64,000 bases of DNA, taken from Desulfobacteraceae bacterium. Lineage in GTDB: Bacteria > Desulfobacterota > Desulfobacteria > Desulfobacterales > Desulfosalsimonadaceae. Below the pieces are notes generated by a model, which saw only the letters and a program-made list of their open reading frames with translations, was not told where the DNA came from and made no database searches. The stretch spans positions 1 to 64,000 of the forward strand of contig QZKW01000083.1 of the NCBI GenBank assembly GCA_003599885.1, written 5' to 3'. Positions 4,727-58,807 of this stretch are shown here, one piece after another; position 1 is the first letter of the stretch, and every line of letters starts with the position of its first letter. The translations under genes and the position numbers were made by a program.

Positions 4727-5275
4727 TTATTTCCAGATACTCAAATCCCGCTGTATCAGTTGCTCTAATTGTTTTATATCTTCTTTAAAATAATCGGCCC
4801 AATGTGTTCTGGTTGTTTCAGAGAGAGCCGGCCGGTTCTCCATCGGTTTCACATTAATTCGGTCCCTGATTAATTCTGCAATTGCGGCCGCACCGGACTT
4901 GCGTATACCCGTTTTTAACCAACGGAACTTTTTAGGCTGCAATATTTCCCTCGCCCCGCTAATAAATTGATTGACTGACTCTATCCGAGGCGTTTTCGTC
5001 TGGTTTGAGCGGGATGTTATCTCATTGCCAAACCAGGAAGTTACTCCCAGGAATGAATAAATTTCTTCCAGAAGCTGCTTTCTGCCGGATTGAATATCCT
5101 CATAAAGCACTACCTTAATATTCCTCTTGCCGAAAAGGCTAAAATAGTTTTTCAGCTGTTGATAATAAAGACTTTCCTTAAGAATAGACAGCGTTTTTTT
5201 TATAGCCGTTTCAAACTGATGTTCCGCTATGGCTCCCAGCTGCCGTTGAAATAGAAAAGCTGATTGCTTATAAAT
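4727..5275 (-). pseudogene. Sulfotransferase, 3' half only
   Basis: The frame encodes the C-terminal part of a PAPS-dependent sulfotransferase-family protein. SLYYQQLKNYFSLFGKRNIK and VVLYEDIQSGRKQLLEEIY correspond to the conserved region after the 3'-phosphate-binding serine. The N-terminal P-loop-like PAPS motif (GxPKSGTT type) is absent. The frame can be followed to 5323, but only inside the 3' end of the preceding gene, so an internal start there is unlikely to be natural. A deletion that joined the flippase-like gene to the tail of the sulfotransferase explains the layout. If translated, the product would lack the cofactor site. Confidence 0.65.
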
Positions 5276-6230
5276 CCTTTTTAAGCATGGACAATAATTC
5301 CCAAATTCCTCCGATGACTGCACCTATAAATACTGTAACAATAAAAATTAAAAATGACATTGCCAGGGCTTCATGGCCAGAAACACCATAAAGGCCCAAA
5401 AGGTATACCATTGAGCCGTCTCTCACTCCCAGTCCTGCAAAGGTGACCGGCAACATTGTTGATGTCATGACTGCGGCACGAATCCAACCCATAGAAATAA
5501 AGTTCAACGGAATGTTTAGTGATGAAGCCAGAAGGACAAAAACAAGCACCCCGAGCAGGTGGCTTAAAAGGGTCAGGGTAAAAATAATTAAAGCGTCTGT
5601 AATGCTCAGTTCCTTGAACTTGATCAATGCGTTTGTCCAGAGGTGAATTTTAGTTGAAATGGTGCCTCCCACTGAAAGATGAATGAAAAATTGAAATATT
5701 CCTGTGATGATTGCCGTACAAAAATACAATCCGCCCATTGCGATTAAAATTGCCAGGAAGGCTCCCCAAATATTTTTTGGAAGCCATTCTTGATGGAAAC
5801 TCCAGAAAATGGCCCCGCCGATAAAGACGCCGAAGGTTGATATGAGACGGTCAAACAAAATGATGGAAACAACGGAATCCAGTTTATTGCTGGCCTGTTT
5901 GAGCTTGTAGCTTCGAACCAGTATCGAAGTGATTGTGCCGCCGGGAATAAACAGTTTATAAAATTGAGCGGTAAAGTTAATATCTAAAAGTTTAGTGATG
6001 CCCAGACTTAATCTGTGTTTATCTGTTAAGACTTTTAGCCGGAAAGTAAGAATTATCTGGCCAAGTAAAAAAGCAAAGCATGCTGCAAGGAGTTGTTCTC
6101 TTGAGACCCGGCCGAGTAATCTGCTGAATTTGGTAAAAGGAATATACTGATAGAGAATCAAAAGAATGACACATGAAATAATCAGCTTGGCCGCCCAGAT
6201 GAAAGTTTTCCGAAGCATCGTATAATACAA
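5268..6230 (-). CDS. Lysylphosphatidylglycerol synthase TM region/UPF0104 family flippase-like membrane protein
   Basis: The 320-residue product has about eight hydrophobic segments and the family signature around FTAQFYKLFIPGGTITSILV and the late AGLGVRDGSMVYLLGLYG. Members are integral inner-membrane proteins linked to lipid or lipid-linked glycan handling (MprF N-terminal half, AglD, YbhN); the precise activity is usually unknown. A TTG start at 6230 has an AAGGG five to six bases upstream; an ATG at 6218 is an alternative. It follows the two phosphatase-superfamily genes on the same strand and probably belongs to their operon. Confidence 0.8.
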   Translation of the reverse strand: MYYTMLRKTFIWAAKLIISCVILLILYQYIPFTKFSRLLGRVSREQLLAACFAFLLGQIILTFRLKVLTDKHRLSLGITKLLDINFTAQFYKLFIPGGTITSILVRSYKLKQASNKLDSVVSIILFDRLISTFGVFIGGAIFWSFHQEWLPKNIWGAFLAILIAMGGLYFCTAIITGIFQFFIHLSVGGTISTKIHLWTNALIKFKELSITDALIIFTLTLLSHLLGVLVFVLLASSLNIPLNFISMGWIRAAVMTSTMLPVTFAGLGVRDGSMVYLLGLYGVSGHEALAMSFLIFIVTVFIGAVIGGIWELLSMLKKDL

Positions 6231-16998: not shown

Positions 16999-17254
16999 GT
17001 TAAGGTCCGGTTACGGTTAAAATTAAGGGTATCTAAAGGACGGTGTATGCCCCTTCCCGGCGGATATCGTTTTAAAGTTCACTATAGTTATCGTTTTAAG
17101 TCAGGAAAAGCGTAAGATCAACCGATAAGTTGTGATTCTGATTTGTGCCTTCATTTCTTGATATTTCAACAGGCTATTGGTATGAGCGTTACATCGTGCA
17201 TATCTGCTGGGGGCGCTGGTTTTTAGCATGTTTAATGAAACAGGTTGATGATTG

Positions 17255-17638
17255 ATGATCAAACTCATGGTAATCGGCATTGGCGGCGCTGTTGGTTCCA
17301 TCCTTCGGTACCTGATCAGCGGGTATGTCCAGCAATTAACCAGAAGCGTCGGATTTCCCTATGGAACACTGGCGGTGAATGTGCTGGGGTGCTTTATCAT
17401 CGGGGCCCTGTTCCATTTGGCCGACACTCACGGCGTCTTTTCGTCGCAAACCCGGTCGTTTATGTTTATTGGCGTGCTGGGGGGACTGACGACATTTTCC
17501 ACTTTTGGCAATGAAACCATGATTCTGGTCAGGGACGCTCAGCATGGGCTGGCTTTGGCCAATATCGCGGCAAATGTCCTGTTGTGCCTGGGGGCTGTAT
17601 GGCTGGGGCGAGTGACCGCATTCTGGATGTGGAGGTAA
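17255..17638 (+). CDS. crcB: Fluoride channel CrcB/Fluc
   Basis: About 127 residues with four membrane helices. GGAVGSILRYLIS, then FPYGTLAVNVLGCFIIGAL and VLGGLTTFSTFGNETM give the conserved Asn and the TTFSTF phenylalanine pore motif of Fluc fluoride exporters, which act as antiparallel dimers. ATG 17255 is preferred over TTG 17252. Five bases after its stop begins a DUF190 gene whose GGAGGT spans the crcB stop, a common pairing. I see no fluoride riboswitch signature in the upstream 250 bases. Confidence 0.95.
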   Translation: MIKLMVIGIGGAVGSILRYLISGYVQQLTRSVGFPYGTLAVNVLGCFIIGALFHLADTHGVFSSQTRSFMFIGVLGGLTTFSTFGNETMILVRDAQHGLALANIAANVLLCLGAVWLGRVTAFWMWR

Positions 17639-17642
17639 CTGC

Positions 17643-17990
17643 ATGAAGCTGCCTGTAGAAGGATGCCTGCTCCGCATATTTATCGGTGAAAGTGATAAAT
17701 GCGACGGGAAACCCCTGTATGAGTGGATTGTTGTGAAAGCAAAAGAGCAGGGGCTGGCCGGGGCCACCGTATTGCGGGGCATGATGGGATTCGGTGCGAA
17801 CAGCCGGGTCATCCACACATTCAAAGTCATCCGGCTGTCCGAGGATATGCCAATCATCATTGAACTTGTCGATACCAGGGAGCGGCTGGAAGGATTTCTT
17901 GGCCTGATAGAGGATAAAATTGATGCGGGCCTGGTAACTCTGGAGAAAGCCGAAGTCCGGTTTTATCAAAGCAAAAAAACGGGGCAATAA
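17643..17990 (+). CDS. DUF190 domain protein, CrcB partner
   Basis: The 115-residue product matches DUF190: GCLLRIFIGESDKCDGKPLYEWIV, then GLAGATVLRGMMGFG and LPIIIE-like IIIELVDTRERLEGFL. The fold is PII-like, so a regulatory ligand-binding role is suspected. It often follows or is fused to CrcB. It is translated from a strong GGAGGT overlapping the crcB stop. Confidence 0.9.
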   Translation: MKLPVEGCLLRIFIGESDKCDGKPLYEWIVVKAKEQGLAGATVLRGMMGFGANSRVIHTFKVIRLSEDMPIIIELVDTRERLEGFLGLIEDKIDAGLVTLEKAEVRFYQSKKTGQ

Positions 17991-18031: not shown

Positions 18032-18550
18032 TTATCGAAACGGCATCAGCGCCCTGAAAAATTTTATTGCTTCAGGCGCCGCTCCCCGCATATCCCACAC
18101 GTATTCCCCGATACCAAACTGTGCCAAAACGTATTTTCCCAAACCGAACTGCCCGATGGCGGTGAGGCCTGTTGCGAACTGTCCGATACCAAAGAGATAG
18201 GCGATTGCCAGCTGCCCCACAGCATAAACGCCGGTGGAAGCCTGGCCCAGGCCGAAAACCATTCCAACGGCGAGCTGGCCAATAGAGATCAGGCCGGCAG
18301 AGGCATGGCCGACAGCAATCCCTCCCACTGCCAGGCGGCCGATGGCAATAATTCCTTTTGCGATGATTCGTTTTCCGGTTTCCGGGCATTTCCCACGGGT
18401 ATAATGAATCAGCGGCAAACCCATCAGTTGTTTCCGGGTCATGAATTCTTCAAACAAATCGCCATTCGGATACACAAACCGCCGCCAGACGCCCAGCGGG
18501 GTTTCTGTAATTTGGTATTCAACAGATTCGAGCAGAAGATTTTTCATCAT
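18032..18550 (-). CDS. Glycine-rich decapeptide-repeat protein, unknown function
   Basis: About 172 residues from ATG 18550 (or 18547); an in-frame ATG at 18751 would add a hydrophobic, less conserved-looking leader. Residues from about 65 onward are built from eight consecutive 10-11-residue units of the form xxIGQLAVG, for example LISIGQLAVG, LTAIGQFGLG and KYVLAQFGIG. The regular small/hydrophobic pattern could form a narrow coil or beta-helix-like stack, perhaps within or against the membrane. The N-terminal 65 residues (LLLESVEYQITETPLGVWRRF) are non-repetitive. I do not recognise a named family. Confidence 0.6.
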   Translation of the reverse strand: MMKNLLLESVEYQITETPLGVWRRFVYPNGDLFEEFMTRKQLMGLPLIHYTRGKCPETGKRIIAKGIIAIGRLAVGGIAVGHASAGLISIGQLAVGMVFGLGQASTGVYAVGQLAIAYLFGIGQFATGLTAIGQFGLGKYVLAQFGIGEYVWDMRGAAPEAIKFFRALMPFR

Positions 18551-18817
18551 TGAATGGCCCGTAAAATTGTTTTTTTGCAGGGTTGAAAGATAAAGGGAAG
18601 TCATTTCTGACATACCGAAATATGCTGATAAAATCAATAAATTTAAAATTTTATATAGATGCAGCCGGATCGATGGAAGCAAAAATGCTAGTTTTTGGCT
18701 AGTATAAACCTCATATTCTTTTCGAAATGGGTATTCCTGAAAATGTGTCATAGTAGCACCATCAAAATGGGTTTAATTTTTCCCAGGCCTTAAATCATTT
18801 TCAGAAAGGTGATCCTC

Positions 18818-19900
18818 ATGTTTATGTTCAACTCTTCATCAAAAGCATTGAATTCGTCCAATTACATCCCGGCGCCAAACATTGCCGATGCATGGGTGTT
18901 GCATGACAGCAAGGAGAAAACAGAGAATTTGTCAGAAGCCTTTGCTTTCAGTTTCGAAGAGCGAATGACGTATATCAGAAAATATGGCAGCCATTGCATG
19001 TCATTTTCAACCCTGCAGCCGGGAATGAAATTTTTTGACGTTCCGGACAAGGGTTTTATCGCTTATATGCAGAAATGGGGCAGCCAGATGGTTTTGTCCG
19101 ATCCGGTATGTCATGAAAAAGACCGGGAACTCGTCATCAGTGAATTCCTGAAAAAATACAAACACACCGGATTTGTTCAGATCACCGAGCCGGTGGCGAA
19201 ACTGATGCATGAACGTTTTGGCTATTACGCCACCCAGTTTGGCATTGAAACCATCGTGGATCTGGAAACCTGGGACCTTTCAGGAAAGAAAAAACAGATA
19301 TTGCGCACTTCGCTGAATCAGAGCCGCAAAAACGGCATTGTCATCCGGGAATGCCGGGAGGAAACCCGGCACCATGAGCTTTCCAGACAGTGGATGTCCA
19401 CCCGGAAGATCAAAAACAGGGAAATCGGATTTTTGATCCGTCCCATGGTCATGGAGCACGAAGAGGAAACCCGCAAATTTTTCGCCTACCATGAGGACAA
19501 GCTCGTGGGGTTTGTTTTTTTTGATCCGATTTACAAGGACGGGAAAATCATCAGTTATGTTCCCAATATTTCCCGATTCAGCCACAGCTTCCGGCAGGGA
19601 ATTTTTTATTCACTGCTGGTTTACGCCATGGATACCTTTAAGAAAGAAGGCCTCAATGAAATAAATCTGGGGCTGTCGATTCTGGTGCTGGATGAGGAAG
19701 ACAAGCAATCCGAATCCTGGATATTAAAGAACATCGAACGGCTGATTTTCCGGTATGGAAATTTTATCTATAATTTTAAGGGCATTGCGTTTACCAAATC
19801 CCGGTTTAACGGAAAAACCAATAAATTCTATTCGGCACACCAATGGAGTCTGCCGGCCATCAAGCTGATTTCCATGTTCAAGCTGTCGAATGTCTTTTGA
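18818..19900 (+). CDS. Phosphatidylglycerol lysyltransferase C-terminal (DUF2156) GNAT-fold protein
   Basis: About 360 residues, starting at ATG 18818 behind AGGTGATCC. The protein is a stand-alone copy of the catalytic half of MprF-type enzymes. MTYIRKYGSHCMSFSTLQPG, then GSQMVLSDPVCHEKD and LRTSLNQSRKNGIVIRE fit the tandem GNAT fold of LPG_synthase_C. MprF transfers an aminoacyl group from tRNA to phosphatidylglycerol, but many stand-alone copies have unknown substrates. It lacks the membrane flippase half. A thioester-reductase-like gene follows 23 bases downstream on the same strand, suggesting a two-gene lipid pathway. Confidence 0.8.
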   Translation: MFMFNSSSKALNSSNYIPAPNIADAWVLHDSKEKTENLSEAFAFSFEERMTYIRKYGSHCMSFSTLQPGMKFFDVPDKGFIAYMQKWGSQMVLSDPVCHEKDRELVISEFLKKYKHTGFVQITEPVAKLMHERFGYYATQFGIETIVDLETWDLSGKKKQILRTSLNQSRKNGIVIRECREETRHHELSRQWMSTRKIKNREIGFLIRPMVMEHEEETRKFFAYHEDKLVGFVFFDPIYKDGKIISYVPNISRFSHSFRQGIFYSLLVYAMDTFKKEGLNEINLGLSILVLDEEDKQSESWILKNIERLIFRYGNFIYNFKGIAFTKSRFNGKTNKFYSAHQWSLPAIKLISMFKLSNVF

Positions 19901-21248: not shown

Positions 21249-21287
21249 AAGCCCGCTCAAACCAAAGTTTTGAGCGGGCTTTTTTTA
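21249..21287 (+). terminator. Rho-independent terminator
   Basis: AGCCCGCTCAAA pairs with TTTGAGCGGGCT around a short loop and is followed by T7. It ends the SDR gene and sits against the 3' end of msrAB, so it may serve both directions (an A-run precedes the stem). Confidence 0.9.
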
Positions 21288-22379
21288 TTCAAACAATCTG
21301 AGAAACGATTCATATCCCTGTTTTTTAAGATCTTCCTTTGGGATAAAGCGCAAAGCTGCGGAATTGATACAGTACCTAAGTCCCGTAGGTTCCGGCCCAT
21401 CATCAAATACATGTCCGAGATGGGAATCCGCCTTTTTGCTTCTCACTTCAGTTCGCGTCATAAACAGGGTTTTATCTGTTTTTTCCACCACCGCATCCTT
21501 TGAAACCGGGCGGATGAAACTCGGCCATCCGGTGCCGGAATCAAATTTATCCAGCGAGCTGAACAAGGGCTCGCCGGATATGACATCCACATAGATCCCC
21601 GGTTTTTTGTTGTCCCAGTATTCGTTGTCAAAAGGCGGTTCTGTTTTGTCCTGCCGGGTGACCGAATACTGTAGCGGCGTCAGCCGATCCTTGAGTTCTT
21701 TGTCCGCCGGGCGGACATAGGCGGATGAAGAGGCTTTATTTTCAGGCTCTTTGTCCCATATTTTTTTTAAATACTGGTCCCTTCCGGATCCGTGACGATA
21801 GTATTTGTAACGGATGGGGTTATTTTTGTAATAATCCTGGTGGTAATCCTCTGCCGGATAAAAGGCGTCGTATGGAGTGATCTCCGTAACCACCTTTCCA
21901 TTGTGTCTGCCTGATTGTTCAATAGCCTGCTTTGATTTTTCAGCCAAAGCACGTTGCGCTTCGCTGTGATAAAAAATGGCGGAGCGGTACTGGGGCCCCC
22001 GGTCAACAAATGATCCGCCGCTGTCTGTGGGATCAATCTGGCGCCAGAAAACATCAAGGAGCCGTTCATAGGCAATTTGTTCCGGGTCGAATGTGACTTG
22101 TATCGCTTCCATGTGGCCGGTTTTACCACTGGAGACCTGCTCGTAGGTGGGATTTACCTCCCTTCCGCCGGTGTATCCGGAAATTACATTGATGACCCCG
22201 TCTTGCTTTTCAAATGGCGCTTCCATACACCAGAAACACCCGCCGGCAAATGTAGCTGTTTCAAAAGTCTTTTCCCGGTCCGCGGCCGGGATGTTTTTTT
22301 CATCCGCCGTGGCCGGTGTTGATCCAAATAGTGTCATGGTCATAATTCCTAATATAAATAGGGTGTTTAAAATTTTCAT
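21285..22379 (-). CDS. msrAB: Secreted peptide methionine sulfoxide reductase MsrA/MsrB fusion
   Basis: 364 residues. A signal peptide occupies residues 1-25 ([20 protein letters not shown], then ATADE). MsrA follows with [15 protein letters not shown] (catalytic Cys near 48), then MsrB (about 220-360) with [11 protein letters not shown] and [14 protein letters not shown], whose Cys is catalytic. The Zn-binding CxxC pairs of some MsrB forms are absent, as usual in fusions. ATG 22379 is chosen since GAGGAG precedes it and the leader begins there; an upstream in-frame start at 22448 is not needed. It repairs both S- and R-sulfoxides of methionine outside the cytoplasm. Confidence 0.95.
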
Positions 22380-22470
22380 CGTCAATAGCTCCTCAAAAAT
22401 GTGCCCAAAAGACATCAGCAGGTATATGTTGATAACATAAGGCGTCATGGGTTCGATGCAAACAAACCGA

Positions 22471-42622: not shown

Positions 42623-45600
42623 ATGAAATTCCAGAAATTACTTTATTTTCTTCAAAATGTCGGGCGGGACCCCTCGTCGCTGATGCAGGAGGACTATCTG
42701 ACCGGGCTGAAAAACCGCCGGTTTTTACTGCATTATCTGAAATACGCCCTGGACTGGGACAACATTTCCGATCATCCGGTTTCCCTGCTGCTGGTGGATA
42801 TCGATTATTTTAAGCGGATTAATGAGCAATACGGCAGCGAGGTCGGCGACCAGGTACTGGTGCATGTGGCCGGGATGCTGAAGCAGATTTCCGGTAAAAA
42901 CGGTATTCCTGTTCTAAATGCCGGGGATGAGTTTATGGTCATCATGCCGAACATGAAAAAACAGAGCGCTTTGCTATTGGCTTCGGAACTGGTAACGCAC
43001 GCCGCAGGGAACCTCTTTTTTTCATCAGACGCAGGCACCCAGATTCCGATTACCTTAAGTATCGGGGCCGCCACCGCGCCGGATGACGCGGGCAGCGCAA
43101 ACAGCCTGATCAACCAGACAAAAAACGCCCTGCACCAGGCAAAGGCAGCCGGGAGAAATCAGTATGTGGATGCGGCTATCGTGGCCCGGCAGGCGCTCCA
43201 GTATCTGGACAGCGCCAGTATTGTGGGCAGAAAAGCCCAGTTTGAAGCCATCAGCCCCGCCATTAGCGGGGTTGAAAACGGGATCAGCCGGTTTGTTATT
43301 GTGGACGGAGCCACCGGCATGGGCAAAACCAGTTTTCTGGATGCGGTCTTCCGGAATCTGAACAAGTCGGGATTCCAGGTGGTGCGCGTGTCCGGCGTAG
43401 TCCAGGAATCGTTCCGCCCCTATTATCTTGTCGCGTATATCGTCATAGCGCTGATGAACGAACGGGAGGATAAAGGCATCGATGTTCTGGAAAATATGGA
43501 AAAAGCCGATCTTGAAAACATTGCCCTGATTCTGCCTCAGGTCGGAGATGCGGAGGTAAATGCTCAGAAGATTGATGAGCGGCGGCGGGAGGACATTTTC
43601 CGGTCGTTTATCCGGTTTTTTATCACCCTGGCATCCGGCCGGCAGCTGGCCCTGCTGATTGATGATCTGGATTACAGTGATCCGGCATCCCTGCATCTGC
43701 TTCGGATGATGCATCTGGAAAAATCCGTGGTGATGCTGGTCTGCGCCACTGCCACCGAGGAAGCCAAAGTCAAGCCCAAAACCATCCCCCTGGAACTGTT
43801 CCGCTCCGCATACAGCGACGCTCTGAACATTCTGACCATTCAGTTGACGCCATTGACTGCCCCGGAGATTGAAAAACATATTCATATTATTTTTCCCGGA
43901 ATTGAGATTCCGTCCGCGTTGTCCACTGCTCTGGCCCAGGTTTCACAAGGAAGCCCGCTTTTTGTGAATGAAATCCTGAGAAAAATGATCACGGACCAGA
44001 AAATCGTTCAGTCCGGCCAGCGCTGGAAAGTGATGAAGATAGACAAAGGCTATTTCCCCAAATCTCTTGAAGACATCATCCGGACCAAATTCCAGGCATT
44101 GGACGGCGACAGCCAGCGGTTTCTGGATTGCGCGTCCGCGTTTGGCGAATCCATTTCACTCAGCATGCTCACCGGCGTTTCCGATGAAAAGTCAGCTCTG
44201 GTGCATGATTTATTGAACCGGGCCATCGATCAGGGGCTGGTGTGCACGGATTTTAATGAAAATGATGAAACGATCCGGTTTTTGAGCAAACGCATCCAGA
44301 ATGTCATTTATGACAGGATCCACCCGGACCAGAAGAAAAGTCTTCACGAACAGATCGGCAATTACCAGGAAAAGCTTTATCGGCATCATCTGCTCCCTTC
44401 CGCCTCGTTTCTGGCCCATCATTTCAAACGGTCCGATAATCAGGAAAAAGCCACAGCCTACGAAGGTCTTCAGGCAGAGCTGAATAGCAGCCTTTTCAAT
44501 GACAGGGAAATGGCCCGGTACCAGGTGAATGGAGAAACGGAAGATACTGCGGCGGGGGAAGCCGCTCTGGGTGATGTGCCGCTGGGTGAAACCAGCAGGG
44601 CCTTTATCCCGAAACTCCTGCAATCCCTGCTCATCGCCATCCGGAACGCCCGGCTGTATCCTCCGGAAAGTAAATCCGTGGTCAATTCCATTGATCAGCT
44701 CAAGCTGCTGTTGGAACGGGTGCTGGAAGACACCGGCCGCCTCAGCATCATTACGGAAAAAAACACCCTGATAATGAACGGCCAGGTTTTGGAAGTCGGA
44801 AATTTCCAATCCATCGCCCAGACCATTATCGATTTCTGGGACCGGCTTCAAATCAGCAGCCTGACTTTTGTCAAGGGATTGACTGAAAGTGAGCTGAAAA
44901 TTGTGCTGGGAAGAATTTGCCGTATTGAGCCCAAGGAGATCACCCCGCGGTTCTGGAAGACTTTTTCCGAGGCCAATCAGCTTCAATTTGTCCTCCCGAG
45001 ACAGGTTCGGTATAAAAAAATCAAGGCGCCATTACTGGCAGCAGACCCGGACCGTGCCGGAGTCGCCAGCCGGATGGACGCCGATGTTGCCGCGTCCGGA
45101 GAATACGGGTTTAACGAGCAGGAAATGATCGTTATTCAGCGAATTATCACTGTTCTGCTTGGGGCTTACAGCAAACTGAAGCTTTACCCCGCCGAGGGAC
45201 CGGTAGCCAAACAGGCTGTTTCCCAGGTGATGACCGCATTCGCCCCGTTTTTTGAGACCCGCCCGGCCCTCACCCTCACACGGATTGACTCCTCGCTTTT
45301 GATCAATGGGGTCCGGATGGACGCGTCAGGATTTGAAACCATGACGAGCGGAATGATCCGGTTTCTGGCGGAGATGGAATTAAACAGCCTCACGTTTTTG
45401 CATTCAGTGGCGGAGTCTGATGTGATTGCCTTTATGGCTGCCGCCTGCGGAGACATCGGTGAAGGAGGGGCGGCGTTCTGGCACAAAATCGCGGCGGAAA
45501 AACAGATTAAAGGGGTTCTGTTTGATCAGCGGGTATACGGCATCGCAGCCATGGTTCCGGGGCCGGGAACCGGTCAGGATGAGGCCGGGGCAGCGCCTGA

Positions 45601-46813
45601 AGCATCTGAAGGGGTATCCGGTGCTGAAGAAACACCAGAGGTGATGCCGGAAGAAACGCCGCTGGAAGAGCTGGATCCGAAACAATTTACAGATCAGTTA
45701 AAGAAACTCTTTCTGTCCGGCGACCGGAAACAGGCCGCCGCCAAAATTTGGCAATTGTGCAGGCAATACGAGTCTGCCGATGGTCCCGGTAAAAATGTCA
45801 TACTGGACGTTTTTGAAGCGGTTTTTCAACCCGCTGACTGGCGGCCCGGCGCCGCCTATCTCCATCTGGTTCTCAGCCAGGCAATGCCGGTGTTTGAACC
45901 GGAAAAGAATCCGGAACAAATTCTCCGAATGGCGGGGATCCTGAACGTCTGCGCCAAAGATTTTATTCTTTTCGGGGATTATACGTCTGCGGCCTGGGCG
46001 ATTTCGCAGGTGGAACAAATGGCCGGGGCGGACGCTCTGAATATTGAAACCGGAGTGATTGACGGGGTCCAGGAAGATCTGAAATCCGAAGACCGCGCCC
46101 GTCAACAGGAAGCGTACCAGCTTTTAAGTACTCTGGGGGCCCGGATTGTTCCGGCGCTCATTGATGCGGCGAAACGGGAAAGCAGTCTGCGGGTCCGGCG
46201 TATGATTGCGGATCTCATCAGCAACCAGGGGGAAGAAGCGGTCGGAACATTCAGAAAATCGCTGATGGGGGAGAACCGGCCCGAATACCGTGCCCGGCTG
46301 GTGGATGTGATTGACGCGGTGGCCTCGGATGTGATGATGGAGCTGGCGGACACCCTGTCGGATTCTTCCGATGTGGTCCGCCGTTCCGCGTTCCGGCTGG
46401 CGGAACGAATGAATACCTCCCTTGTGATTGAGCTGATGATTGAATTGGCTGTGGGGGAAGATCCGGATGTGGCGATTCCGGCCATTGGGGTGCTGGGAAG
46501 CCTTAAAGCCAGAAATGCCATTGAGGTATTGATTCAGATAGCGGAACAGGCGGAAGGCAAAGAGACGCTGACGGCGGTCTGCCGGGCCATGGGGCAAATT
46601 GCGGATCCCGCGTTTGTGGCTACCCTTGAAAATCTTCTTCTGCCCCGGCGGCGGCTGTTTTTTCATAAAAAAAGTGATCCGGCGGTCCGGGTGGCTGCCC
46701 TGTATGCTGTTTCCCAGATTCAGGATCCGCGCATAAAAACCATGTTGATGGCGCTGGCGGAGGATCCGGACTCACGGATTCGGGAAGTGGTGAAGAATTT
46801 GGGCATTATTTGA
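42623..46813 (+). CDS. GGDEF-STAND ATPase-HEAT repeat signalling protein
   Basis: 1396 residues. GGDEF-type domain: DYLTGLKNRRF (24-34) and NAGDEF (99-104), with the first Gly of GGDEF changed to Ala, then VGRKAQF at 201. AAA_16-like NTPase: Walker A DGATGMGKTS (228-237), Walker B LALLIDDLDYSD (342-353), with a helical winged part to about 650. Two similar modules follow (about 660-810 and 830-980), each having LYPxE, an internal LLINGx/LIMNGQ strand and SLTF. HEAT-like repeats fill 1110-1396 (VRRMIADLISN, AIEVLIQIAEQAE). c-di-GMP synthesis is doubtful because of the GGDEF change. The role is probably a nucleotide-switched scaffold. Confidence 0.8.
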   Translation: MKFQKLLYFLQNVGRDPSSLMQEDYLTGLKNRRFLLHYLKYALDWDNISDHPVSLLLVDIDYFKRINEQYGSEVGDQVLVHVAGMLKQISGKNGIPVLNAGDEFMVIMPNMKKQSALLLASELVTHAAGNLFFSSDAGTQIPITLSIGAATAPDDAGSANSLINQTKNALHQAKAAGRNQYVDAAIVARQALQYLDSASIVGRKAQFEAISPAISGVENGISRFVIVDGATGMGKTSFLDAVFRNLNKSGFQVVRVSGVVQESFRPYYLVAYIVIALMNEREDKGIDVLENMEKADLENIALILPQVGDAEVNAQKIDERRREDIFRSFIRFFITLASGRQLALLIDDLDYSDPASLHLLRMMHLEKSVVMLVCATATEEAKVKPKTIPLELFRSAYSDALNILTIQLTPLTAPEIEKHIHIIFPGIEIPSALSTALAQVSQGSPLFVNEILRKMITDQKIVQSGQRWKVMKIDKGYFPKSLEDIIRTKFQALDGDSQRFLDCASAFGESISLSMLTGVSDEKSALVHDLLNRAIDQGLVCTDFNENDETIRFLSKRIQNVIYDRIHPDQKKSLHEQIGNYQEKLYRHHLLPSASFLAHHFKRSDNQEKATAYEGLQAELNSSLFNDREMARYQVNGETEDTAAGEAALGDVPLGETSRAFIPKLLQSLLIAIRNARLYPPESKSVVNSIDQLKLLLERVLEDTGRLSIITEKNTLIMNGQVLEVGNFQSIAQTIIDFWDRLQISSLTFVKGLTESELKIVLGRICRIEPKEITPRFWKTFSEANQLQFVLPRQVRYKKIKAPLLAADPDRAGVASRMDADVAASGEYGFNEQEMIVIQRIITVLLGAYSKLKLYPAEGPVAKQAVSQVMTAFAPFFETRPALTLTRIDSSLLINGVRMDASGFETMTSGMIRFLAEMELNSLTFLHSVAESDVIAFMAAACGDIGEGGAAFWHKIAAEKQIKGVLFDQRVYGIAAMVPGPGTGQDEAGAAPEASEGVSGAEETPEVMPEETPLEELDPKQFTDQLKKLFLSGDRKQAAAKIWQLCRQYESADGPGKNVILDVFEAVFQPADWRPGAAYLHLVLSQAMPVFEPEKNPEQILRMAGILNVCAKDFILFGDYTSAAWAISQVEQMAGADALNIETGVIDGVQEDLKSEDRARQQEAYQLLSTLGARIVPALIDAAKRESSLRVRRMIADLISNQGEEAVGTFRKSLMGENRPEYRARLVDVIDAVASDVMMELADTLSDSSDVVRRSAFRLAERMNTSLVIELMIELAVGEDPDVAIPAIGVLGSLKARNAIEVLIQIAEQAEGKETLTAVCRAMGQIADPAFVATLENLLLPRRRLFFHKKSDPAVRVAALYAVSQIQDPRIKTMLMALAEDPDSRIREVVKNLGII

Positions 46814-53632: not shown

Positions 53633-56600
53633 TTACCGGGTTCTTATGGGGAACGGCGTCGCATTCACCCATGCGGATGAACCCGATGCGTTAAATGATT
53701 GAACACGGAAATAATAGTCCCGGTTACGTCCAAGGACGCCACTGTTAAAAGTGGTAGTGTTCGCCCCGACGGTTCTCGTGACCACAGCGCTCGTAAATGC
53801 CGCGTTTCTGGCCATTTGGATTCTAAAGTTGGTTTCATTGTTTGAGTTGTCCGTCCACCTGACCGTGCAGCGGGCATCGTTTCCGGTGGTCCTTGATGTT
53901 ACTGTGACATTGGACGGAGGCGCCGGAACAAGGGATGCGGTCACGGCAACCGTGGCCGTGTTGGACCAGGGCGATGACGCGGGGCCGTTGACGGCTTTCA
54001 CCCGGTAGGCATAGGTGTTGCCGGGTGTTACCGCCGTGTCCGTATAGGTCACGCTGCCCGTAGTGACTCGCGGTCCGGGTGCGGCGATCTGGGCAAAAGC
54101 GCCGCCGTTAACGGCGCGCTCCAGGACAAAGCCGGTTTCATTAATCGCGTTGTCCATCCAGCTCACCAAGACCTGGGGGCCGGCCTGAACCGTCGCTGTC
54201 AGCGCGGTGGGCGCTGGCGGCGCGATCGCAACCATTATCGATGCGGTATTAGAGAACTCCGAAACCATGGTCGTGTTAGGGAACCCGATGGAAGGAGCGG
54301 CATAAATCGCCGTATCGCCCACCGTGTTGGATGCGAATATCCGATAGAAATACTCCTGGTTCACATCCCCGACGGTATCGGCGTATGTTGTGGTGCCGGG
54401 GGCGAGCGTGGCCAGGTCCGTCCACGGGCCGGCAGCAAATTCAGCCCGCTGTAAAGTGAAATGCGTCTCGTTCAGGGAGCTGTCAGTCCATTCCAGATTC
54501 ACCTGCGTACCGGCCCCGACGCCGCTTTGCGCGGCAGTCAGGTTCGCGGGCGTCCTCGGCCTGACGCCGACCGACTGCGGACGCATCATGTCCATTTCTT
54601 CATGGCTCAGGATATGGCAATGCCATACATACTCCCAGCCGAAGTTGATGAGACGGTTGGTGATGTTCACTGGATTTCCCAATGGATCAAATACTTGCAT
54701 GCCCATGGTCAATGGCGCATCTTCCGGCATCGTCGGATCCATCAGGCGGACGCTGTTGGGAAGATCCCACGGGATTCTGGGAATGAGCGGCCGCAGGGCA
54801 ACGATGGTGTCTTCCAGAGGGCTGACCCGCACCGTGTCCTTCCACCCCAATTCGTTCAGATCGGGTTTCCGGATGATGCCGTCCCAGCCAACCCGGTTGA
54901 TGAGTTGCACATCATAGAGATGGAAATGAATTGGGTGGGTGTCCACCCCGTTATGGGTGATCTTCCAGATCTGCGAGCCGTCGTCCGTCATGCTGATGGG
55001 CGCCAGCTCGACACCCTCCGGTAACTCGATGCCTCGGAGCACCTCCGTCGGCGGCATCCCGTATCCATATAAAATCATGTTCTGATTGCCCGCCTGCGCA
55101 TTCGGCGTCTCGAGTCCCAGAAATCCGCTCATCCGCCCATAGTCGCGTTCAAAGGCCTCACCCATCTCGTCCTGGATCATCTTGGGCTGGAAGGGCATGG
55201 TCAGTGTCGCACCCAAAAGGGTTTTAAACGTCAGGGACGTGTCAAAAATCTGCGCGAGTCCGGCCATCGGTCCATTATTCTGGAAACTGGTGCCGTAAGC
55301 CGAATTGTAAGCGCCTTGCCCCACGACAATCGGGTGCTGGCCGGACTCGAATACGCCCGAACCGTCCGCTTTATGGGCAAAGGCTGCCTGTAGCGCGCCT
55401 AAGTTGAAGCTTGGGGCGGGCGCCGCCGCCGCCACCTTGATCTGCATGACAGTCCGGGTGTTCGGGCCATAACCAGGCAGGGTCGACGGCGCACCGCCGG
55501 TATCCCTGTAGTCCCCGTTGCCGGTGTAATAATCATAGCGCGGGTCGCGCGCCGGGAAAGCTGCCGGTGCGTCATTATAGAGAATCAACGTCTGACCGGC
55601 ATAGGCGGAGAAGTCCACGATCACATCCGCCCGTTCCGCCGGGGCGATCAGCAGGGAATGCTGGTCCACATTACCGGCGTTGAACACGGTCGGGTCATTC
55701 ACCCAGGTGGTGGGATGGGCCGGAATAACCACCGGGGCCGGCAGGAATCCGCCTTCATTACCGATCTGGATCCAGTTCGGCCCTTCCGTACCCGCAACCG
55801 GAGTCGGGAACACCGTTGGATCTTCCAGTGCTTCCGCAACCTCTGCGGGATTCAACTGGACTTCGGTATCCGCCAGCGGATCGGCCATATATAGACTCAA
55901 ATTGAAGAAGCGGTCGTTGGCGGCATTCAGAACGCGGAAGCGGTAAGCCTTGGGCTCCACAGTAACCGTCGGGTAAGGAGTTCCGTTGACCATCGGCGTA
56001 TCCATGAACGCTTCCATGCCCATGGAGTTGAACGGTACGCCGGGCATCAGGGGCGGTTCACACCAACCGGCATCGGGATCACAGGCCGGGTCAAAATAAG
56101 GATTGTCAATCGGTCCGTATGCGACGCTCGATGTGGGCGGCCAGAACCAGGGGCCATAGGCCCAGCGGCCGAACTGGTTGACGCCGGAACTGTCGCCCGG
56201 GTTCTGGGCCGGTGAATAGACATGGGGCAGCCACAGGTTGCCGACGCCACCCCAGCGGGTCATATCCCAGGTTTCATCGGAGACAGCAAGCTGCGTCTCG
56301 CTCGGCACGAACGTCTTGTCCTGCACCACCAGCGGGATGGTGCTGTCAGAGCCGGGGATGAGCCCCTGATTGAGCAGCGCCTGCTCAGTATCGTCAGTAA
56401 TAATGTAGGGTGCGGCTTCGCCCGCATAGACGTTCAGGCGGGTAATGCCATAGGCGTGATCGTGGTAGAACATCAGCCGGGCGCTCTGCTGGTTGGTGTA
56501 ATAGAAAGTCATTTCCCCATCGTTTGGATCACCCGGATCATTCATGTCCGGAACGGGCATCACGCTGACGCCCTGCGGATACGGTGTATTTTCATTCGCC

Positions 56601-58687
56601 GGGGTGATCCACTGATGCGGGGTGCCGTCACTGATCCAGGGCGATATCCCGCCATGCAGGTGAAGGGTGGCCCGGTTTTCGGTGTAGCTTTCGTAGGGTT
56701 TCGGAATCATTCCGCTCATGGGATTCTGAGGATCCATTTCCTCCATGCCGCCCATCAATGGTCCCATGCCCGAACCCATGACCGTGGTGTCCACCGGAAG
56801 GAAAAGATTGCCGTCCACACCGGACGGAAGCAGGTTGTAGAATTTGATGCGTACCGGCCGGTTCTTGGTGGCAACGATTGTCGGCCCCAGGTAGTGGGGC
56901 GGTGTTACCCCTGTATACCCGATGATCGGATCGGATGTGCCATCCAGAAGCGTGTTGGATAATGGGGCCGCGCCCGGGACTACCCCTGTCGAAAGCTGCA
57001 CATAACCGCGCAGCAGGGTCGGGGGAAGGTCTGAGTGCATTTTTTCGCTGTACTGAACCACTGCGATTTCATAATAATCGGAACCCGGATAGGTGGTTTT
57101 GTCCGGAACGGCCACCGGAATGTACTGTCCGAGATTGTTTGCGCTTGCGGCGCCGAGGCCGGGCAGGGTGTCGACGAATTTACGGATGCCGCCGGAGGTC
57201 ATGGCATGAGCGCTCAGGTCGGCCGCGGGTGCGAAATAGTTCGCCGTCATTGCGTCCGCCACCAGTTGTTGGCCAATGCCTACCGCCAGAACGGAGGAAT
57301 TCCGCAAGTGGAGTCCGGCCCAGGTTCTGGCGTTCACGATTTCCGTTCGGAGATCATCCGCAGTGGCATAGTGCCGGGTTGTGCCGGTGATGCTGCTGTC
57401 CAGATCAATGGCGATATTGGGCGTGCCGAAGACCTGGGTGTAGACTTCGGCCTGAGCCGAAATAAAAGAGCCATGTCCCGCCACGTATTCAGGGAAGTTC
57501 GGGGTCATCACCAGCGGCATCCAGGTGGGATCAGCCACTGTCGCAGCATTGCCGTCGGTGTCGGCTCTCTGGATCGCTGTTACCGGCCGCCAAAGGTTAT
57601 AGAAATATTTGGCGTCAAACGTGGCGATCAGGCTGTCGGTGGCGGCCATGTTGCCCATGACCATCAGGCGGGCTGTGTCAAGCAGACTCAGGCCCCGGTT
57701 TGCGGCCTGCTGCCGGTAAGCGGCGTTGGTCTGTATGACCATGTTTGTTGTCCAGAATTTGGCTATTTCCGTCTGCTCCGCCGTCCGGGTCATACTCATG
57801 GCGCCGCCGATGTCCTTGACCTCGTTCAGATCCACTGCATATTCAGCGCTGTCGAGGGCCGGGGGAGGCACGGGGCGGTAGTCGTCCGGGTTGGATCGCA
57901 AAAACGGTGTCAATACGGCCATCCAGGGATCCATGGGGGGCGCGGGGGGCATCATCGTTGATTCCCAAACCCCCGGACCGGGAGCCGGCAATATGTAACC
58001 CCCATTTCCGCTGAGAACGTCGCCGGACCGGAGCGCGATAATCTCGTCGGCAGCGTCTTGGCCCACGGCGATCCCGTTTGTCTTGGCAGTGTTGTCGGGA
58101 ATCGCCGCAAGAGAGGCGTTGTACTTCCCTGTGAGGGCGGCTGACGGAAAATAATGGTTGAGTACGCCGTATGCGGCCGTCGCTACCGCAGCATCCCGTG
58201 AAGCGCCAGGATCGGCTGTCAATGTCGAGTTATAGGGTGCATACCCGCCCTCAATGGCCACCAGGGCGTTATAGACAGCACCCTGCACGTAGGACAGGTG
58301 GACAAATGCCGCTGACATTGAGGTTCCGCCCATCGGCATCGGCATTCCCTGCATGGGTGGGGGCTGGAGGATATCCTGGGCGATGACGTTCCACTCAGCC
58401 ACGATGTTGCCCGGCAGCGGGCTGTTGGCATAGTTCGGGTGGCTGAAATAATGCGGCGCGGTGCCTGGCATGGGCATGGCTGCCGCACCCGGCTCCTCCA
58501 GCAAAAAGCCGGCATCATCCGCACGTTCGGCGGCGGCTTGCCTGTCGGCCTGAGTGATTTTTTCTTTATTTTCGTTTCCCGGTTTTTTTGGGTTTTCGCT
58601 TTTGGCGAGAACCTGACCGGCTCCCCATAAAAATACAATTCCTATCAGAACCAAACTTAATACTCTACAAAGTTTGCGTTTTTTCAT
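53633..58687 (-). CDS. Secreted vanadium-haloperoxidase-like/multicopper oxidase/triple FN3 fusion protein
   Basis: 1684 residues from ATG 58687 (in-frame 58771 is rejected; a signal peptide MKKRKLCRVLSLVLIGIVFL starts here). Region A (about 60-540) has the haloperoxidase pocket: KYFYNLWRP (KxxxxxxRP), PEYVAGHGSF (PSGH with Ser to Ala) and ARTWAGLH (SRxxxxxH). Region B (about 590-1370) is a CotA-like multicopper oxidase with all four copper motifs: HLHGG, YHDHAYG, HPIHFH and WHCHILSHEEMDMM. Region C holds three FN3 domains (from about 1380, 1492, 1590). The only change from the vanadate set is Ser to Ala. It acts outside the cytoplasm, perhaps in metal or phenol oxidation. Confidence 0.9.
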   Translation of the reverse strand: MKKRKLCRVLSLVLIGIVFLWGAGQVLAKSENPKKPGNENKEKITQADRQAAAERADDAGFLLEEPGAAAMPMPGTAPHYFSHPNYANSPLPGNIVAEWNVIAQDILQPPPMQGMPMPMGGTSMSAAFVHLSYVQGAVYNALVAIEGGYAPYNSTLTADPGASRDAAVATAAYGVLNHYFPSAALTGKYNASLAAIPDNTAKTNGIAVGQDAADEIIALRSGDVLSGNGGYILPAPGPGVWESTMMPPAPPMDPWMAVLTPFLRSNPDDYRPVPPPALDSAEYAVDLNEVKDIGGAMSMTRTAEQTEIAKFWTTNMVIQTNAAYRQQAANRGLSLLDTARLMVMGNMAATDSLIATFDAKYFYNLWRPVTAIQRADTDGNAATVADPTWMPLVMTPNFPEYVAGHGSFISAQAEVYTQVFGTPNIAIDLDSSITGTTRHYATADDLRTEIVNARTWAGLHLRNSSVLAVGIGQQLVADAMTANYFAPAADLSAHAMTSGGIRKFVDTLPGLGAASANNLGQYIPVAVPDKTTYPGSDYYEIAVVQYSEKMHSDLPPTLLRGYVQLSTGVVPGAAPLSNTLLDGTSDPIIGYTGVTPPHYLGPTIVATKNRPVRIKFYNLLPSGVDGNLFLPVDTTVMGSGMGPLMGGMEEMDPQNPMSGMIPKPYESYTENRATLHLHGGISPWISDGTPHQWITPANENTPYPQGVSVMPVPDMNDPGDPNDGEMTFYYTNQQSARLMFYHDHAYGITRLNVYAGEAAPYIITDDTEQALLNQGLIPGSDSTIPLVVQDKTFVPSETQLAVSDETWDMTRWGGVGNLWLPHVYSPAQNPGDSSGVNQFGRWAYGPWFWPPTSSVAYGPIDNPYFDPACDPDAGWCEPPLMPGVPFNSMGMEAFMDTPMVNGTPYPTVTVEPKAYRFRVLNAANDRFFNLSLYMADPLADTEVQLNPAEVAEALEDPTVFPTPVAGTEGPNWIQIGNEGGFLPAPVVIPAHPTTWVNDPTVFNAGNVDQHSLLIAPAERADVIVDFSAYAGQTLILYNDAPAAFPARDPRYDYYTGNGDYRDTGGAPSTLPGYGPNTRTVMQIKVAAAAPAPSFNLGALQAAFAHKADGSGVFESGQHPIVVGQGAYNSAYGTSFQNNGPMAGLAQIFDTSLTFKTLLGATLTMPFQPKMIQDEMGEAFERDYGRMSGFLGLETPNAQAGNQNMILYGYGMPPTEVLRGIELPEGVELAPISMTDDGSQIWKITHNGVDTHPIHFHLYDVQLINRVGWDGIIRKPDLNELGWKDTVRVSPLEDTIVALRPLIPRIPWDLPNSVRLMDPTMPEDAPLTMGMQVFDPLGNPVNITNRLINFGWEYVWHCHILSHEEMDMMRPQSVGVRPRTPANLTAAQSGVGAGTQVNLEWTDSSLNETHFTLQRAEFAAGPWTDLATLAPGTTTYADTVGDVNQEYFYRIFASNTVGDTAIYAAPSIGFPNTTMVSEFSNTASIMVAIAPPAPTALTATVQAGPQVLVSWMDNAINETGFVLERAVNGGAFAQIAAPGPRVTTGSVTYTDTAVTPGNTYAYRVKAVNGPASSPWSNTATVAVTASLVPAPPSNVTVTSRTTGNDARCTVRWTDNSNNETNFRIQMARNAAFTSAVVTRTVGANTTTFNSGVLGRNRDYYFRVQSFNASGSSAWVNATPFPIRTR

Positions 58688-58807
58688 GACATTTTTCCTT
58701 TTTAGTGGTGATGTGGGCTTAAACTTTATTTTTAAATGCCGTAAAATGAATCTGACCGTCAATCGTATCAACCACCTCCTTTCATACGATGAAGGTTTTT
58801 ACATCCG

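Follow-up and report, generated by a model that had tools for sequence, protein, structure and literature searches.

A conserved and unnamed decapeptide-repeat family with the predicted fold of a beta-solenoid variant

The gene at 18032..18550 on the minus strand of the window (the whole stretch of 64,000 nucleotides that was analysed, from a Desulfobacteraceae contig) encodes a standalone protein of 172 amino acids belonging to an unnamed family. This decapeptide family is real and conserved, and by its predicted fold it is a variant of the beta-solenoid kind. The explanation that best accounts for the whole, to which we give an even chance of being right, is a narrow beta-solenoid with one turn per repeat unit and with glycine and alanine inside, which would be held at a membrane or packed against itself and would anchor an N-terminal module.

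Gene, repeat units and family motif

The reading frame runs from an ATG at 18550 (protein start M-M-K-N-L-L-L-E) to a stop codon at 18034-18032, and five relatives align with the product over its full length at 49-63% identity. Of the two Met codons, it is the second with which the starts of these five nearest relatives align. The frame stays open upstream to an ATG at 18751 which has no counterpart in the five, and the extension 18751-18550 is probably untranslated because the nearest relatives start at the second Met. Residues of the 172-amino acid protein are counted here from the first Met.

The protein has three parts: an N-terminal module with the family motif (residues 1-65; 18356..18550, minus strand), supported by alignments of family members and zinc-ribbon model matches in relatives; a repeat region (residues 66-147; 18110..18355, minus strand), supported by unit spacing, a shuffle test and column composition; and a C-terminal part (residues 148-172; 18035..18109, minus strand) with a helix at residues 159-168 in the AlphaFold2 model and a D-P-E-A-V-x-F-F pattern found in many relatives. 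Judged by eye, the predicted helix is amphipathic, and the ends of most long members look amphipathic too.

A previous sequence-only reading had described eight decapeptide-type units of 10 or 11 residues, and this description is borne out. Residues 66-147 (82 residues) consist of eight units with lengths of 10, 10, 10, 11, 10, 11, 10 and 10, the fourth and the sixth being undecapeptides, and the consensus unit is G-x-[ILV]-A-[IV]-G-Q-[FLV]-A-V. Residues 72, 82, 92, 103, 113, 124, 134 and 144 are R, H and then six times Q, each after a Gly or Ala. In the self-similarity of residues 64-153 the top lag is 10 (z 6.3), with lag 5 at z 5.7 and lag 21 at z 5.0, and none of 2000 shuffles equalled the best score over lags 5-34. 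The other 27 members of the family alignment have their best lag at 10, 21 or 31, and in many relatives lag 21 equals lag 10 in strength. Their best lag was reached by 0 of 2000 shuffles for 21 of the 27, and by 18, 8, 3, 2, 1 and 1 of 2000 for the remaining six. The repeat is thus conserved across the family, which excludes a chance reading.

Members differ by whole units, with eight in the group of the window protein, seven in most long zinc-ribbon forms and five in the short form when counted by eye. Column composition and charge were counted in 20 of the 28 aligned rows, with L022-L029 left out. In these 20 members Gly, Ala or Ser fills 100% of the cells at position 1 of the unit, 80% at position 4, 99% at position 6 and 85% at position 9, all with low entropy, and Gln occupies 136 of 146 cells at position 7. 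Aliphatic residues, aromatic residues or Cys make up 88%, 97%, 87% and 77% of the cells at positions 3, 5, 8 and 10, where Ile, Leu, Val and Phe exchange freely. The repeats, their conservation, the absence of charge described below and the variants in domain structure can all be read directly from the aligned proteins.

The core module of the family is E-[FYW]-x-[ST]-x5-G-x-P-[LV]-x-H followed by A-[KR]-G and then by the ten-residue units, and a few members deviate from it at single positions. The motif E-F/Y/W-x-S/T-x5-G-x-P-L/V-x-H occupies residues 35-49 of the window protein, which has the motif, A-[KR]-G and the repeats that define this GLPLIH-decapeptide family. The part ahead of the motif is variable: many relatives carry a zinc ribbon in its place, while the window protein and its five nearest relatives have a different N-terminus. 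Zinc-ribbon models match ahead of the core module in 20 of the 28 aligned members at E <= 0.1 (best 5.6e-6, PF13248). No signal peptide was seen when the sequences were judged by eye, which together with the zinc ribbons suggests that the N-terminus of the family is cytosolic.

In the relative from Bacillota (L070:2830-3474), the gene lies directly behind one that resembles a serine recombinase by eye, and the N-terminal domain looks as if severed by a mobile element. An XRE-type helix-turn-helix ahead of its repeat was considered and then dropped, as Pfam and PDB searches gave no support, and the remaining N-terminus may resemble the end of a helix-turn-helix.

Distribution and genomic surroundings

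The sequence-only reading proposed a search for other proteins with the same repeat, and relatives are indeed found within the phylum and beyond it. A search with the window protein matches 33 of 395 sampled genomes of the phylum at E <= 0.001, a number that includes the window's own genome and remnants. A profile of the repeat domain matches 34 of the 395 at E <= 1e-4, a few of them being weak matches with five-residue units. In the taxonomic family of the window there are matches in 5 of 36 genomes, of which two (G000 and G423) have an open gene, two (G333 and G412) have remnants and one (G409) matches through the zinc ribbon of another protein. Fragments (L017, L030, L031) and single-protein matches without a locus do not form part of the 28-member alignment. 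A further relative was found on a record of Subdoligranulum variabile (Bacillota), and when used as query it recovers the same family, with matches in 35 of the 395 genomes, 32 of which are among the 34 of the profile. Taken together, the Bacillota relative and the matches in the 395-genome sample show that the domain crosses phyla.

Within the libraries searched (Pfam, NCBIfam, PDB sequences and PHROGs), the claim that the protein is of no known family stands. The window protein matches no Pfam family at E <= 1 and no PDB sequence, and the comparisons with NCBIfam and PHROGs gave nothing save one chance hit each (E 0.13 and 0.38). Against the PDB, a profile search gives E values of 0.064 or worse, mostly with ribosomal zinc-ribbon proteins, and the repeat domain alone gives no profile hits. 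There is no relative in the viral contigs scanned, and a phage search with L026 matched the zinc-ribbon stretch only. Plasmid searches with the window protein and with L022 gave no match; the zinc-ribbon form hit one Bacillota record, which when used as query matched the same record only. The domain is left blank by the searched libraries despite its presence in 34 of 395 sampled genomes. No description of this decapeptide family was found in literature searches, and no such repeat is described in the accessible part of PMC7618865. The Knotted Solenoid was considered as a counterpart and dropped, since the accessible part of PMC13123833 concerns a Brevundimonas family.

The weak profile matches in L105 (G312), L106 (G083), L107 (G226) and L108 (G183) have pure five-residue units. 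Among them are GLFSAG units that match Pfam GLTT and are preceded by a hydrophobic segment at the N-terminus, and GALAI-type units that lead into a charged tail, RLEIDELVV for example. These proteins with five-residue units possibly represent a broader class of Gly/Ala/aliphatic solenoids.

The gene converges with two neighbours on the plus strand, a member of the CrcB fluoride exporter family (17252..17638; PF02537, 1.3e-27) and a DUF190 gene (17643..17990; PF02641, 2.2e-35), and diverges from a gene for a lysyl-phosphatidylglycerol synthase C-terminal domain (18809..19900, plus strand; PF09924, 1.2e-45). Within the genus, DUF190 and CrcB adjoin the decapeptide gene both in the window and, by eye, in G423, and the G333 remnant lies on the same 10-kb stretch as these two genes. 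A gene similar to the one at 18809..19900 stands divergently beside the remnant in L031. When 35 loci were clustered, no neighbour was common beyond the genus.

Some other reading frames of the window are worth recording. The membrane and catalytic parts of an MprF-like lysyl-phosphatidylglycerol synthase are encoded by separate genes about 12.6 kb apart (5268-6230, minus strand, and 18809-19900, plus strand). A 1712-residue frame (53633-58771, minus strand) has fibronectin type III domains and multicopper-oxidase matches (one over the cut-off and two below) across about 700 residues, and a 1396-residue frame (42623-46813, plus strand) combines GGDEF, AAA ATPase and HEAT repeats. The 387-amino acid frame at 21285-22448 on the minus strand looks like a fusion of the peptide methionine sulfoxide reductases A and B, and L031 has a similar frame about 3.5 kb away from its remnant.

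Several copies of the decapeptide gene are decaying. The remnant at L031:5995-6159 lacks the N-terminal part. The one at L064:1-400 (G333, same genus) by eye lacks the start and just one unit, and part of this loss could come from assembly because the remnant lies near the contig start. At L063:7708-7800 (G237) the start and the C-terminal helix remain, each in a different frame, and the repeats between them are lost. The decay recurs in relatives, and the protein is probably a dispensable accessory protein.

Predicted fold, charge and membrane contact

The all-beta, solenoid-like character of the repeats comes from AlphaFold2 models of two distant members and from fold comparison. Model 1 (window protein, alignment of 28 sequences) has pLDDT 93.4 and pTM 0.78, with five models ranging from 93.4 to 77.9. 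Model 2 (zinc-ribbon relative L012, 25 sequences) has pLDDT 88.8 and pTM 0.69, and its five models disagree, from 88.8 to 66.3. Because the alignments have most of their sequences in common, the two models are only partly independent. Both are nearly all beta in the repeats, mostly at good confidence, and in model 1 the pLDDT is near 98 for the beta structure of residues 111-160. According to DSSP, each of the first five units in model 1 forms one strand of 7 to 9 residues with a 2-residue break at the Gln turn, which looks hairpin-like, and there is no break at the Gln turns of the last three units. Model 2 likewise lacks a break at several Gln turns. The unbroken strand runs across these turns cover residues 114-153 in model 1 and 66-115 in model 2. 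Strands that continue across Gln turns would be expected of stacked turns and not of an antiparallel meander.

Foldseek comparisons of both models with the PDB gave nothing at E <= 0.001. The same threshold left nothing in BFVD, where the list, which is viral, includes a MORN-repeat and a pentapeptide protein at E 1 or worse. With VIA-align, the first rank for model 1 is the YadA-type head 3s6l (Z 8.1, rmsd 5.5 A, 106 aligned residues), and the first ranks for model 2 are EibD (Z 6.1, 7.0 A, 89 aligned) and CbpF (Z 6.0, 6.5 A, 123 aligned). Next in both lists come mostly left-handed hexapeptide beta-helices with Z 2.0-3.5, and the list for model 1 also mixes in a Toll-receptor repeat (Z 3.6) as well as KhtT domains (Z 3.1-3.4). 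By the program's own caveat such Z values may mean no more than a shared arrangement. Pentapeptide and RTX beta-roll families are absent among the fold matches listed, which does not count against either. No PDB fold matches the models well, and what comes nearest to both is the left-handed beta-roll of YadA-type heads. The narrow beta-stack suggested from the sequence agrees with these two models, whose top structural look-alikes are beta-solenoids. No well-known repeat family is matched by sequence, and by fold there is no more than a likeness to the YadA-type heads (best Z 8.1, rmsd 5.5 A).

Charge is nearly absent from the repeat region. The membrane-lining structure considered in the sequence-only reading is one possible setting for such a region, a buried interface being another. 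Across residues 86-137 there are 4 charged residues in 1039 cells, as against 283 of 1006 and 93 of 420 (22-28%) in the flanks (20 of the 28 members). The core of the window protein has one charged residue in 73 and a mean hydropathy of 1.25, and two membrane proteins in the window have means of 1.05 and 1.32. Hexapeptide-helix segments of the same genome have at least 4 charged residues and a hydropathy of at most 0.67 in seven of eight loci, one locus having given no segment and two of the eight segments being shorter than 73 residues. Of the 53 window reading frames of at least 100 amino acids, no other has a 73-residue stretch with one charge or fewer. A rod with almost no charged surface, whichever side faces out, probably belongs in or at a membrane, or else lies hidden within an oligomer. 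In the favoured explanation it would sit in the membrane or on its surface, or pack against its own copies, as neither face carries charge.

A soluble homo-oligomer with no membrane contact, in which greasy faces would pack on copies of the protein as in YadA-type trimers or in a filament, is a serious contender, though the chances are somewhat against it. The top fold look-alikes are trimeric adhesin heads, and flat Ala/Gly/aliphatic faces are suitable for packing, but charge is absent from both faces, beyond the need of one buried face, and the C-terminal end of one member (L067) consists by eye of a hydrophobic stretch followed by KKKR, which points to a membrane.

The same member allows a further argument. 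If its C-terminal stretch is a helix with a cytosolic basic end and its N-terminus is also cytosolic, the repeat region of this one protein would need to cross the membrane. A membrane-spanning beta-solenoid could be imagined as an uncharged rod of five to eight ten-residue turns, charged mainly at its ends, lying axially across the inner membrane and carrying a cytosolic zinc ribbon or other module. Beta-solenoids are spaced 4.8 A per turn, and a rod of 5-8 turns would be about 24-38 A long. This idea is speculative and probably wrong. If it is true, proteins made by ribosomes would have a third route across the membrane, in addition to helix bundles and beta-barrels. No paper on a transmembrane beta-solenoid or beta-helix was found in literature searches. 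For the family in general, the most likely role is that the rod would serve as an anchor or scaffold that keeps a cytosolic N-terminal module, for example a zinc ribbon, at the membrane.

Turn size and comparison with known systems

We infer turn size, handedness and the inward or outward facing of side chains from alignment spans and DSSP strings rather than coordinates. The residues per turn were obtained by dividing the alignment length or span by the template turn size. Each template was assigned a solenoid class, and the turn sizes used were 18, 15 and, for YadA heads, the 14 stated in the available part of PMC9543794. Over 38 alignments the median number of aligned residues per template turn is 10.4 for model 1 (12 of 20 listed rows, leaving out 7b1d, four KhtT entries, 4zsx, 8j9h and 4a0t) and 9.5 for model 2 (26 of 26), most of these alignments having Z 2-3.5 and rmsd 6-9 A. 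When the span from first to last aligned residue is used, the values rise to 13.6 in model 1 and 11.6 in model 2, and the best single hit gives 15.5, so the number of residues per turn is not sharp. A turn of 20-21 residues should yield clearly more per template turn. One turn per unit is favoured by this and by the fact that single units are gained and lost, as in the G333 remnant of the same genus, which by eye is short of just one. On the basis of the models, each decapeptide probably forms one turn of a very narrow beta-solenoid.

In such a solenoid each unit G-x-[ILV]-A-[IV]-G-Q-[FLV]-A-V would make about one full turn. Only Gly and Ala would fit inside a ten-residue turn, which puts the large residues outside: Gly and Ala at positions 1, 4, 6 and 9 would fill the interior, the aliphatic and aromatic residues at positions 3, 5, 8 and 10 would point outwards, and the conserved Gln at position 7 would stack as a ladder down one edge. 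To our knowledge a turn of ten residues is tighter than in any solved beta-solenoid.

Another arrangement is a two-sided beta-roll of 20-21 residues per turn, in which each unit is a half turn (a strand of 8 and a Gly-Gln turn) and the large residues lie partly inside. The strand of 7-9 residues with a 2-residue break in each of the first five units of model 1 fits this, as do the strong lag 21 and the undecapeptides in the fourth and sixth places. The template turn advances per about 10 aligned residues and not per 20, single units are gained or lost in relatives, and several Gln turns of model 2 have no break, all of which makes the two-sided roll unlikely, yet well worth keeping in mind. 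A pentapeptide-repeat protein with unusual residues (right-handed, four-sided, 20 residues per turn) is improbable. Lag 5 is strong (z 5.7), weak matches elsewhere have pure five-residue units (GALAI), one matching Pfam GLTT repeats, and a viral pentapeptide protein is found among the Foldseek rows at E 1.0, but no Pfam pentapeptide-repeat model matches at E <= 1, no solved pentapeptide protein was recognised among the Foldseek and VIA-align matches listed, and the spans favour about 10 residues per turn. An ordinary alpha-helical membrane protein misfolded by AlphaFold2 is highly improbable, for despite a composition like that of membrane proteins in the same window, neither a Gln at every tenth residue nor Gly/Ala-rich units would give 20-residue helices, and model 1 has the pLDDT near 98 noted above for beta structure.

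If the narrow one-turn-per-unit solenoid is true, it would be among the tightest protein beta-solenoids and inside out, with an aliphatic surface and a Gly/Ala interior. Nature would then have supplied a case in which to ask whether membranes can host a beta-solenoid, and designers would gain a repeat scaffold of simple make-up.

Several known systems resemble the family in part. GLTT (PF01744) and GALAI-type proteins have short Gly/Ala/aliphatic repeats and are weak profile hits of the family, but their units have five residues and no GLPLIH module was seen in them. The beta-flower fold (PF21784-PF21786) is likewise small, symmetric, all-beta and unannotated, but it is an antiparallel barrel, as far as the accessible part of PMC10584680 describes it, and the window protein matches none of PF21784-PF21786 at E <= 1. 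Toastrack (DUF4097/DUF2154/DUF2807) is closer in the proposed role: in the accessible part of PMC11237479 it is an intracellular beta-helix, proposed as a docking surface near the membrane and combined with regulators. It is right-handed according to the same source, it has no Pfam match here and no conserved neighbours were found around the decapeptide genes. The left-handed hexapeptide beta-helices (GlmU, LpxA, gamma carbonic anhydrase) are solenoids and next in the fold lists, but they are more charged than the core of the window protein, and PF00132 matches 24 places in the genome and none in this gene.

The YadA-type heads (BoaA 3s6l, EibD 2xqh and CbpF 9gh5) are the top structural look-alikes of both family models. 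They differ in having units of 14 residues as against 10-11 here (lag 14 has z -1.9 in the window protein), and they belong to long autotransporters with a stalk and a membrane anchor, whereas the window protein has 172 amino acids and no such Pfam domain. There is no match to their sequence family, and the present family is greasy on both faces. The head motif is GxNSVAIGAxSxAx in the accessible part of PMC9543794, and in our own reading the removal of two residues per strand turns it into GxVAIGAxSx, which is close to GIIAIGQLAV.
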